Assembly (NCBI GenBank): GCA_021161545.1
Contig: JAGHAJ010000116.1
Span: 1-11,951, forward strand
Direction: 5' to 3'
Source: Synergistota bacterium
GTDB lineage: Bacteria > Synergistota > JAGHAJ01
Length of the DNA: 11,951 bases
Part shown: piece by piece, positions 2,487-11,951 of the stretch
Layout of the letters: each line of letters opens with the position of its first letter
Position numbering within the stretch: the first letter of the stretch is position 1
Program-made: the position numbers and the translations under genes
The notes under the pieces: model-generated
The model's input: the letters and a program-made list of their open reading frames with translations, nothing else
What the model was told of the DNA's origin: nothing
Databases searched by the model: none

Positions 2487-2515
2487 AAAAAAGGGCAGAG
2501 CTGATGCCCTGCCCT
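2487..2515 (-). terminator. Intrinsic terminator of hcp
   Basis: On the minus strand, 24 bases after the hcp stop codon, AGGGCAG pairs with CTGCCCT around a 10-base loop. A second register, AGGGCA with TGCCCT around a 7-base loop, uses the same 3' arm. Six T follow directly. On the plus strand no T-run follows, so it acts for the minus strand only. Confidence 0.85.
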
Positions 2516-2538: not shown

Positions 2539-4203
2539 TTAATTGCCACTTAACATATCTTGCATATCTTTCTCAACTGTTGTTATGCTTCTTATATCAA
2601 ATTTTTCAGCGAGGATTTTCAACACGTTAGGAGATACAAATGCAGGTAAGGTTGGTCCGAGCCGTATATTTTTTATACCTGAATACAGTAAAGCAAGCAA
2701 TACTGCTACTGCTTTTTGTTCATACCATGCGATATTATAGGATATTGGGAGGTCATTTATGTCGTTAAGCCCAAGGGCACTTTTTAACTTTAGGGCTGTA
2801 ACTATTAAAGAGTACGAATCGTTACACTGTCCTGCATCAAGTACTCTGGGTATGCCATCAATGTCTCCTAAGTCAAGCATGTTGTATCTGTACTTTGCAC
2901 ATCCTGCAGTAAGTATTACGGTGTCTTTGGGGAGCTTTTTTGCAAATTCGGTATAATACTCGCGTTCCTTGTGCCTTCCATCACACCCAGCCATGACAAA
3001 AAATCTCTTTATTTTCCCTGATTTTACTGCAGTAAGCACCTTGTCGAGGACACTTTCAACCGTGTTGTGTGCAAAGCCTATGGGAATCCTTTTTCCCGCT
3101 TTCTCTTTAAGGTTACCTAATTCAAGGGCCTTTCTAATTACTGGCGAAAAATCCTTTGGTCTTCCGTCGACTCTGTTTGGTATGTGTTTAACTCCAGGCC
3201 ATGCCACAAGTCCTGTTGTAAATATTCTGTCTTTGTAGCTATTGAGTGGTTTTTGAATGCAATTGGTCGTCATGACAATTGGTCCATTGAATTCTGCAAA
3301 TTCCTTCTGTTGTCTGTGCCATGACGATCCATAATTTCCTGCCAGGTGCTTATATTTCTTTAAGCCTGGGTATGCATTAGCTGGAAGCATTTCTCCATGT
3401 GTATAGACCTTTATACCTGTTCCTTCTGTTTGCTTTAGAATTTCTTCCAAGTCGAGTAGGTCATGTCCACTTACCAATATGCCTGGTGCAGGGTATGTAC
3501 CTGTGTACACTTCTGTAGGTTCGGGGTGCCCATATGTAGATGTATTTGCCTTGTCAAGTAATGTCATTGCTTTTACTGCAAATTCTCCGGCTTTCATTAC
3601 AGTGGAAATCAGTTCCTGAATGGTGACTCTGTCATTTGTTGTTATAATGAGAGCATCCTCAATAAAATGAAGTATCTCATCATTGAGGTGCTTTAATATG
3701 TATGCGTGGTCCGTATAAGCCGCTATACCTTTTAATCCGTAAATTAGGAGTTCTCTTAGCGAACGTATATCCTCGTCTGGAGTTGAAAGTACACCCACTT
3801 CTTTTCCCTTATTTAGCATGGCCTCTAAACCGTCAGAAGGTTTCCACGTGGCAGCATCATACAACTCCTCTGTGAATTTTCTTCCGTATCTTTCTTTGTA
3901 TGCTCTTTCAAACTCGTTTCTTGTTTCATCTCTGATCTCTAAGGCCCTTTCTATTAATTCTATTAACCTGTTAGAATCGAAATTTACATTAGTTATGGTA
4001 GAAAATAGACCTTCAGCAATAAATAGCCCTGCTTTATTGGCTTTTAAACCAAGCTCTCTTAATTTTTTTGCCCATATGGAGATACCTTTGAGGGTGTATA
4101 TTAGAAGGTCTTGCAGTGTTGCTACTTCATCTGTTTTACCACATACCCCTCGTACTGTGCATCCCTTGTTATTTAACGTCTCTTGGCATTGGAAACAAAA
4201 CAT
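2539..4203 (-). CDS. hcp: Hybrid cluster protein, class I (hydroxylamine reductase / NO detoxification)
   Basis: The 554-residue product is a cytoplasmic iron-sulfur protein of the Hcp family. Members reduce hydroxylamine in vitro, and nitric oxide reductase and S-nitrosylase activities are proposed. The N-terminus [21 protein letters not shown] carries four cysteines at 3, 6, 15 and 21 in the Cx2Cx8Cx5C spacing of class I proteins from strict anaerobes. Hybrid-cluster ligands are all present: H247 in SGHDLL, E271 in THGEMLPA, C315 in TTNCIQ, C407 in MAGCDGR, C435 in [11 protein letters not shown]460 in DAGQCND and E495 in WYEQKAV. These positions sit within a few residues of those I recall for Desulfovibrio vulgaris Hcp. 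The ATG at 4203 is preferred over the in-frame GTG at 4212, because AGGAGG overlaps that GTG and lies 8 bases from the ATG. It is transcribed divergently from hcpR and ends at a clear terminator. Confidence 0.97.
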
Positions 4204-4211
4204 AAGTTGCA

Positions 4212-4217
4212 CCTCCT
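4212..4217 (-). promoter_or_regulatory. Ribosome binding site fixing the hcp start
   Basis: AGGAGG on the minus strand ends 8 bases before ATG at 4203. The upstream in-frame GTG (4210-4212) shares its last G, so it cannot use this site. The ATG also gives the class I N-terminus MFCFQCQ. Confidence 0.85.
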
Positions 4218-4230
4218 ACTTTACAGATTG

Positions 4231-4259
4231 TTGATCTAATTATATTATAGTGCTGTAGT
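4231..4259 (+). promoter_or_regulatory. Weak candidate promoter for hcpR
   Basis: TTGATC at 4231-4236 and TGTAGT at 4254-4259 are separated by 17 bases; each matches four of six consensus positions. A start near 4266 would put the palindrome at 4272-4285 just inside the transcript. Other choices are possible. Confidence 0.3.
4244..4249 (-). promoter_or_regulatory. hcp promoter -10 element
   Basis: On the minus strand this is a perfect TATAAT. The hexamer 17 bases upstream is CATACA, a poor -35. The predicted transcript start is about 4237, giving a leader of about 33 bases. Lack of a -35, together with the operator centred near -41.5, suggests a promoter that needs an activator. Confidence 0.65.
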
Positions 4260-4271
4260 TGTCCTTTGTAT

Positions 4272-4285
4272 GTAACAATTGTTAC
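4272..4285. promoter_or_regulatory. HcpR-type operator palindrome
   Basis: GTAACAATTGTTAC is a perfect 14-base palindrome between hcp and hcpR. It fits GTAACnnnnGTTAC, which I recall as the site reported by comparative genomics for one branch of HcpR regulators; this is from memory and unchecked. Its centre lies 41.5 bases upstream of the predicted hcp transcript start, the classical class II activation position for Crp/Fnr proteins. It also lies 13 bases before the hcpR start codon. Confidence 0.8.
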
Positions 4286-4286
4286 G

Positions 4287-4291
4287 AGGAG
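4287..4291 (+). promoter_or_regulatory. Ribosome binding site fixing the hcpR start
   Basis: AGGAG stands 7 bases before TTG at 4299. The longer in-frame TTG at 4266 has no such site and would place the operator palindrome inside the coding sequence. Confidence 0.6.
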
Positions 4292-4298
4292 AGGAAAG

Positions 4299-4976
4299 TT
4301 GGATATTATTGATACTCTTTTAAAGCATCCAATATTTAGGGGCCTTGCCTTGGAGGAAGCCAATAGGCTGATATTGGATAGTAGAAATCATAAGGAAGTT
4401 TTTAGCAAGGATGAGTTTGTAAGGTATAGAGGTGATGAGTGTTCAAGTCTGTTTTTTGTGGTTAGTGGTAAGGTAAGGGCAGAAATGCAGGACCCAAAAG
4501 GTATAGTTTTGCTGTTGGAGATTATGGGCTTTCCTGCGCTTCTTGCACCTAACTTTATGTTTGCACAAAATGGCAAATTTCCAGTTAATGTTGTTGCTGT
4601 TGAGGATACTGCGGTGTGGATCATGCACAGAGATGTTGTGGTATCTGGATTCTATGAGTACCCAGCTTTTTTGATGAATTTTCTAAGAATTGTAGGAGAT
4701 AAGACGGATTTTCTCACGCAGAAGCTATGGATATCAACAATGAATACCCTGAAGGAGAAGGTTATCGCTTACTTGTATAATCTAACAGAATATGGTAAAA
4801 AGAGCGCTTTCGAGCTTCCTATTATGAGGGAAGAGATGGCTAACCTATTTGGTGTGGAAAGACCTTCGCTTTCGAGAGTCGTTTCAGAGTTAAATAAAGA
4901 AGGACTGATAGAGATTAAAGGTAGAAAGGCAAGGATTATAGACTTTGAGCGTATCAAAACACTGCTGGAAATGTGA
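4299..4976 (+). CDS. hcpR: Crp/Fnr-family regulator, probable HcpR
   Basis: The 225-residue product has the Crp/Fnr architecture. An N-terminal cyclic-nucleotide-binding-fold sensor (about 5-120) contains LFFVVSGKVRAEM. A dimerisation helix follows, then a winged helix-turn-helix (about 174-212) with MREEMANLFGVERPSLSRVVSEL and the wing GLIEIKGRKARI. The sensor lacks the Arg-Ser pair that binds cAMP in Crp, and the protein has a single cysteine. A cAMP or Fnr-type iron-sulfur sensor is therefore unlikely. HcpR proteins are known to control hcp in response to nitrosative stress, probably through heme; that sensing is inferred here. TTG at 4299 is chosen as start because AGGAG lies 7 bases upstream; an in-frame TTG at 4266 is the longer alternative. 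It is divergent from hcp with a shared palindrome between them. I see no terminator after it. Confidence 0.88.
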   Translation: MDIIDTLLKHPIFRGLALEEANRLILDSRNHKEVFSKDEFVRYRGDECSSLFFVVSGKVRAEMQDPKGIVLLLEIMGFPALLAPNFMFAQNGKFPVNVVAVEDTAVWIMHRDVVVSGFYEYPAFLMNFLRIVGDKTDFLTQKLWISTMNTLKEKVIAYLYNLTEYGKKSAFELPIMREEMANLFGVERPSLSRVVSELNKEGLIEIKGRKARIIDFERIKTLLEM

Positions 4977-10519: not shown

Positions 10520-11951
10520 ATGCACAGAAAGGCAATAGTTAGATGGTTGCTTGCATCAGGTATTGGAGCGTTGGTAGCTGCATTATTAGTATACCTGTTT
10601 ATTTCTGAAGGTCTATTAACATTTTTGAATGTCCAGCAAATAGTTTCTCTAAGTGTACTAATCTCCATAATATTTGGTACTATAACGGTCTGGGAGCTTA
10701 GAACACCCATTGCAATGGGTGGGATAGTTCTACTCGTGCTATTTAAGATTCTTACAGTTGAAGCAATGATAGAGCACATGGATTTGAATCTGATAATTTT
10801 CCTTATAGGTATGATGGTAGTTGTTGAGTATGTAGATAGGAGTGGTTTTTTCTCGTGGCTAACTGTAAAGATTTTAAACCTCTCAGGGTTTAAGCCTTGC
10901 CACTTCCTCTCTATGTTCATAATATTCACCGTATTCATGGGGGCAATAGTTGATGAGGTTACAACGATACTCTTCATGATGGCAGTTGTCTTAACAGTTT
11001 GTAAGGAGTTTGATGAAGACCCCGTTTTTTATGCAATTGTGATGATATTTGCAGTTAATATAGGAAGTTCTATGACTGCTGTTGGTAATCCTATAGGTGT
11101 GTTTATTGCCTTAAATGCTCACCCAAGGTTAACATTTATGGATTTTATAAGGAATGCTGCACCTCTTAGATTGGTAAATGCTGCTATACTCGTATTCGCT
11201 GCTATATTTTTGTTTAGGCGTAGGTTATCTGCGTTCAGGGAAAAGATTGTTAGGAGTTTTCGTAGTAAAATGGGGCAGGAGAGAATTAGAACGGAAATGG
11301 AATTGACGGAGGCAGAGCTTGAAGAGGCACACTGGGATGAGTGGAAAAAGGTTAGAAATAGAAAGCATTTTTATATAGCGGTATGGGTGCTTGCACTTTT
11401 GATGCTTACACTTTCACTTCACTCTTACATAGAGCATATGTTTGGGTTTTCTTCAGATACAATACTTATAGTTGCCCCCATATTTTTTGCTGGTGTAGTG
11501 CTTTTCTCTGCAGGAGGGGAAGAAGCAAGGGAGATTCTGGAAAAGGGTGTGGATTGGTGGACTTTGCTGTATTTTTTGTTTTTATTACCTGCTATAGCCT
11601 CACTTGAGTATACAGGTATAACGCACAGACTCTCTGTCTATATAAGTGGCATATTAAAGTACGGTGCATTTGCAACTATACTTTTTATGTTGGTATTTTC
11701 TGCTATAATGAGTGGATGGGTGGATAATTTTCCTGTAATAGCTGCTATAACTCCTATTGTTCAATATATGATAAAAACTGGTATGCCTAATGGAGAGCTA
11801 CTATGGTGGAGTCTCTTATTTGGTGGGTGCTACGGTGGAAACTGGACGATGATTGGTTCTACAGCAAATATAGTTGCACTTGGGGTGCTTGAGCGTGAAA
11901 AGGGAATAAAAATAACATTTTTTGAGTGGTTTAAAAAAGGGAGTATTATCC
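10520..11951 (+). CDS. ArsB/NhaD-like ion transporter family permease, 3' truncated by window
   Basis: An uninterrupted frame runs from ATG at 10520 to the right edge, giving 477 residues without a stop. The visible part is already near the length of full family members. It is a multi-spanning membrane protein in two halves. The first has GMMVVVEYVDRSGFF (97-111), VDEVTTILFM (144-153) and NIGSSMTAVGNPIGVFIA (180-197). The second has SGWVDNFPVIAAITPIV (398-414) and GGNWTMIGSTANIV (439-452). These repeated Asp and Gly-Asn motifs are those of the ion transporter (ArsB/NhaD/CitMHS) superfamily, which moves anions or exchanges sodium for protons. A highly charged loop of about 50 residues (233-282) joins the halves and probably lies in the cytoplasm. 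GGGGG lies 4 bases before the ATG. The substrate cannot be read from the sequence, and no arsenic genes are nearby. Confidence 0.82.
   Translation, partial: MHRKAIVRWLLASGIGALVAALLVYLFISEGLLTFLNVQQIVSLSVLISIIFGTITVWELRTPIAMGGIVLLVLFKILTVEAMIEHMDLNLIIFLIGMMVVVEYVDRSGFFSWLTVKILNLSGFKPCHFLSMFIIFTVFMGAIVDEVTTILFMMAVVLTVCKEFDEDPVFYAIVMIFAVNIGSSMTAVGNPIGVFIALNAHPRLTFMDFIRNAAPLRLVNAAILVFAAIFLFRRRLSAFREKIVRSFRSKMGQERIRTEMELTEAELEEAHWDEWKKVRNRKHFYIAVWVLALLMLTLSLHSYIEHMFGFSSDTILIVAPIFFAGVVLFSAGGEEAREILEKGVDWWTLLYFLFLLPAIASLEYTGITHRLSVYISGILKYGAFATILFMLVFSAIMSGWVDNFPVIAAITPIVQYMIKTGMPNGELLWWSLLFGGCYGGNWTMIGSTANIVALGVLEREKGIKITFFEWFKKGSII

Follow-up and report, generated by a model that had tools for sequence, protein, structure and literature searches.

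A predicted HcpR2-type operator between divergent hcp and hcpR-like genes in a Synergistota bacterium

Described HcpR systems and the hcp-hcpR locus

Rodionov et al. (2005, PMC1274295) defined HcpR2 as a branch of the Crp/Fnr family, found in Clostridium, Bacteroides, Thermotogales, and Treponema, whose genes co-localize with that for Hcp. HcpR2 proteins are devoid of the FNR cysteines, their predicted motif, GTAACnnnnGTTAC, has been explained by a proline that replaces Glu-181 in the recognition helix, and hcp is the sole predicted target in most nonclostridial genomes (PMC1274295). In C. difficile, genetic evidence indicates that hcpR activates frdX-hcp (PMC12915319), and in B. thetaiotaomicron, hcp is no longer transcribed once hcpR is deleted (PMC13370916). 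Met68 of P. gingivalis HcpR, which also controls hcp, is needed for activation and has been assigned to heme coordination, and His149 is dispensable (PMC12750200).

We analyzed a stretch of 11,951 nucleotides from a Synergistota bacterium (the window), in which hcp, a gene for defense against nitric oxide, and a gene for an hcpR-like regulator are transcribed divergently. The hcp product scores far above the cutoff for both TIGR01703 and NF003658, and the regulator scores over the gathering thresholds for PF00027 (cNMP-binding) and PF13545 (Crp HTH). The gap of 95 bp between the two start codons (ATG 4203 and TTG 4299) holds the palindrome GTAACAATTGTTAC (Table 1). The names HcpR1 and HcpR2 have reportedly also been given to D. 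desulfuricans proteins by Cadby in 2016, which is a different use of the name.

Table 1. Positions of features at the hcp-hcpR locus, numbered from the first letter of the window
Feature	Position	Strand	Basis
Intrinsic terminator after hcp, 10-bp stem plus T tail	2492-2515	-	Sequence
hcp, hybrid cluster protein, 554 aa, ATG 4203	2539-4203	-	TIGR01703 (752.8 bits), NF003658 (833.8 bits)
hcp Shine-Dalgarno AGGAGGT	4211-4217	-	Sequence
Predicted hcpR promoter TTTACA-17-TATTAT (10/12)	4220-4248	+	Consensus match only
Predicted hcp transcription start	4237	-	Inferred, 7 nt past -10
Alternative TATAAT, operator then at -46.5	4239-4244	-	Sequence; spacing disfavored by relatives
Predicted hcp -10 TATAAT, 22 bp from operator	4244-4249	-	Sequence; counterpart hexamers in G002/G004
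GTAACAATTGTTAC, predicted HcpR2 operator	4272-4285	.	Sequence, published consensus, box in L004/L005
Regulator Shine-Dalgarno GAGGAGAGG, directly beside operator	4286-4294	+	Sequence
hcpR-like Crp/Fnr regulator, 225 aa, TTG start	4299-4976	+	PF00027, PF13545
Met63, aligned with heme-pocket Met68 of P. gingivalis HcpR	4485-4487	+	Alignment
Recognition-helix codons RPSLSR (R188-R193; P189 = CRP position 181)	4860-4877	+	Sequence comparison

The locus has the features of the HcpR2 regulon as published, i.e., a regulator with Crp/Fnr domains that keeps Arg180 and has proline at position 181, a divergent hcp 95 bp away, a box of the form GTAACnnnnGTTAC upstream of hcp, and probably control of hcp only (PMC1274295). 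The regulator has a single cysteine (C48) in 225 aa and thus no iron-sulfur cysteine set of the FNR type. In these respects the first-pass annotation held up well: it had described the regulator as being without iron-sulfur cysteines and the palindrome as perfect, and the consensus that it gave for one HcpR branch is literally the HcpR2 motif (PMC1274295). Two differences from the described regulon were found, namely, that the lineage has no relative closer than phylum among the genomes compared, and that the box is common to divergent, overlapping predicted promoters and abuts the hcpR Shine-Dalgarno sequence. An HcpR box between hcp and the regulator is an arrangement predicted in 2005 for other anaerobes, and the lineage is new; the bioinformatic prediction of that year, comprising HcpR2, its motif, and Pro181, is thereby extended to a lineage for which no close relatives have been sequenced.

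The best solved relatives of the regulator are 1o5l and P. gingivalis HcpR (9day). The former, a T. maritima Crp-family protein that we take to be TM1171, an HcpR2, is the top sequence match among solved structures (31% identity) and has an RPALSR helix, but it has His at the position of Met63. TM1171 and TM1172 are not mentioned in the main text of the T. maritima promoter-data paper. P. gingivalis HcpR, about the closest solved relative, shares the heme-pocket methionine (Met68, aligned with Met63) but differs in the position of His149, which is Trp in our regulator (PMC12750200), and in having Gln at helix position 181 and another DNA motif (PMC1274295). Met63 was not conserved in two relatives from the phylum, which have Y and K there. 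In a tree with long branches and no outgroup families, for which a risk of artifact was flagged, the regulator was placed together with 1o5l, P. gingivalis HcpR, and Bacteroidales regulators in a starred clade (96/90). As an HcpR, the regulator would be expected to bind heme and to respond to NO/nitrite.

B. thetaiotaomicron HcpR resembles the regulator in its Pro/Ser/Arg helix contacts and in its positive control of hcp (PMC13370916). In that species, however, the SnoA RNA locus lies between hcpR and hcp, whereas the genes are divergent in the window and the 95-bp gap is too small for such a locus. A search for Rfam RNA families in the window found none.

Divergent promoters around the palindrome

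On the minus strand, the first-pass annotation had noted a perfect TATAAT (4249 to 4244) with no usable -35, and had placed the palindrome center 41.5 bases upstream of the start predicted from it. Both observations were confirmed, the best -35-like hexamer at spacings of 16 to 18 bp matching TTGACA at 3/6 positions. The distance of 41.5 applies to this TATAAT, which two other genomes favor (center, 4278.5; predicted start, 4237), but a second TATAAT shares one base with the first (TATAATATAAT), leaving the hcp -10 ambiguous by 5 bp and giving -46.5 as the other possible position. Counted from the predicted start, the geometry would be that of class II, with the site at -41.5, a -10 present, and a weak -35.

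Three hcp promoters of this kind were compared, that of the window and those of G002 and G004/GBS-1, which belong to the same phylum; none of the genomes searched is closer to the source than this. In G002, where hcp is divergent from the gene for an RPALSR regulator, the identical 14-mer separates the two, and G004/GBS-1 has GTAACCTATGTTAC between hcp and an RPSLSR regulator. A -10-like hexamer was located 22 bp from the box in the window, 21 or 23 bp in G002 (TATAAA/TAAAAT), and 22 bp in G004, where the hexamer is weak (TAAGAT, 4/6). The upstream regions of hcp in G002 and G004 thus keep both the box and a near-constant spacing to the -10, with a P value of 0.017 when calculated from these two genomes only, the window being left out as the source of the spacing.

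These comparisons bear on the possibility, which we consider unlikely, that hcp starts from the second TATAAT (4244 to 4239), so that the box would lie at -46.5 and would either activate in a way other than classical class II or repress. This hexamer is as perfect as the one that it overlaps, but in the relatives a good -10 is found at 21 to 23 bp and none at 26 to 28 bp (best matches, 3/6 and 4/6), and the alternative 27-bp spacing is unsupported by G002/G004 (P = 0.27).

On the plus strand, the predicted hcpR -10 overlaps the hcp -10, and the operator center is at approximately +23.5 of hcpR, counted from a predicted start near 4255. The box stops 14 bp short of the hcpR start codon, flush with the Shine-Dalgarno sequence, and hcpR is thus probably autoregulated through it. 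Neither this adjacency nor the 5-bp ambiguity of the hcp -10 had been noted in the first-pass annotation. The effect would probably be repression, since the box closely follows the predicted hcpR start and adjoins the Shine-Dalgarno sequence, and since the -10 boxes overlap.

We also give little weight to an explanation in which the palindrome is mainly the regulator's own autoregulatory operator, with hcp being constitutive or otherwise controlled. Such a role would fit the closeness of the box to the regulator start codon, and boxes in Bacteroidales and in G144 do precede RPxLSR regulators away from hcp, which was undetected in 5 of 6 such Bacteroidales genomes searched. It accounts poorly, however, for an hcp promoter that has no -35 and for a spacing between the box and the hcp -10 that is kept in three genomes, and hcpR activates hcp in characterized species.

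We thus favor, with a probability of roughly 0.85, the reading that the palindrome is an HcpR2-type operator from which hcp is activated in a class II manner at -41.5, with probable repression of hcpR. It draws on the sequence elements, the consensus match, the helix-box association (see below), and the conserved place and spacing observed here. According to this proposal, the regulator would be activated, presumably by NO on its bound heme, and the activated dimer would bind to the palindrome, which is centered at -41.5 relative to the predicted hcp start. RNA polymerase would then be recruited by class II contacts to a promoter with a perfect -10 and no usable -35, switching hcp on, and the same binding would probably repress hcpR in a negative feedback.

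A more specific version, which we put forward tentatively as rather less probable than not, is that the single HcpR box switches two interlocked divergent promoters in opposite directions, activating hcp from -41.5 and blocking hcpR from approximately +23. Because the -10 boxes overlap, only one promoter would be occupied at a time. If true, this would be a built-in negative-feedback NO switch within 95 bp. Besides, class II activation by HcpR and autoregulation are both testable in one place at this compact promoter.

Recognition helix and box sequence

We gathered HcpR-like regulators by protein similarity only and obtained 43 distinct proteins. GTAACn4GTTAC was present within approximately 100 bp upstream of 11/11 regulators with an RPxLSR helix and of 0/32 with other helices (Fisher P = 1.7e-10, a value inflated by kinship, since seven of the 11 are closely related Bacteroidales regulators and approximately five lineages are independent). 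RPxLSR regulators occur in two separate parts of the tree, which implies that the helix, and not ancestry alone, goes with the box. The box was absent upstream of three RPxLCR/RPxLHR regulators. Thus, the helix-to-box rule is supported on an independent set. The exact box was not found at the other hcp loci searched in relatives, i.e., 30 loci (L053 to L082; 0/30 with an RPxLSR regulator), G006, in which hcp follows a flavodiiron-like gene, and G144.

The earlier claim that the palindrome is unlikely by chance stands for the 95-bp gap, in which a perfect 14-bp palindrome is expected with a P value of ~0.007 (20,000 simulated gaps) and GTAACn4GTTAC with one that ranges from ~5e-4 under the composition of the gap to 5e-5 under that of the window. 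It does not extend to the genome, where the pattern alone is uninformative, with 2 exact matches in 1.58 Mb versus 1 for the reversed control. In the window, there is no second copy of GTAACAATTGTTAC, even with 2 mismatches allowed. That the palindrome arose by chance, or serves some unrelated regulator, would agree with the lack of enrichment in the genome but is highly improbable, as the same sequence occupies the same place in other genomes whose regulators share this helix class, and chance occurrence in the gap is ≤5e-4. Judging from these sequence comparisons, GTAACAATTGTTAC is almost certainly where the neighboring HcpR regulator binds.

Several other combinations of helix and upstream sequence were observed. 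RPSLSR regulators of Bacteroidales (L013 to L019 and L022) have GTAACn4GTTAC upstream, and in G144 (L027, 2183 to 2260) the gene opposite an RPSLSR regulator and its box is not hcp but a small cupin-like gene. Where the helix of an HcpR-like regulator reads RSxxSx (or RCxxSx), GTTGn6CAAC (e.g., GTTGTAATTACAAC) stands immediately ahead of the start codon in 14/16 cases (L006, L007, L028, L029, L031, L032, L037 to L041, L045, L047 to L049, and L051), possibly representing an undescribed helix-box class in the phylum. PETLSR regulators near hcp are accompanied by TTGAYn4RTCAA in 6/6 cases (L008, L010, L011, L035, L046, and L052), a predicted site that is FNR-like and resembles the published HcpR1 motif, TTGACn4GTCAA. 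Two RTSLSR regulators (L021 and L026) have GTTACCTTGGTAAC and GTTACCAAGGAAAC upstream, as if the change from Pro to Thr at 181 had swapped A/T in the half-site in these two cases.

Candidate regulon

An intrinsic terminator follows hcp, which is therefore probably transcribed alone. Beyond this terminator, on the same strand downstream of hcp, the window encodes an MBL-fold hydrolase (1649 to 2455) that probably carries a signal peptide. In the genome, which is 82% complete, the only other exact match to GTAACn4GTTAC was in coding DNA, in a chemoreceptor-like frame downstream of lipA, and with one mismatch allowed the pattern showed no clear excess over the reversed control (39 versus 55). Given the terminator and the coding position of that match, the regulon probably consists of hcp and hcpR, and we claim no further targets. 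The longest perfect palindrome in the window, CACCCATTGCAATGGGTG (18 bp), is located at 10704 to 10721.
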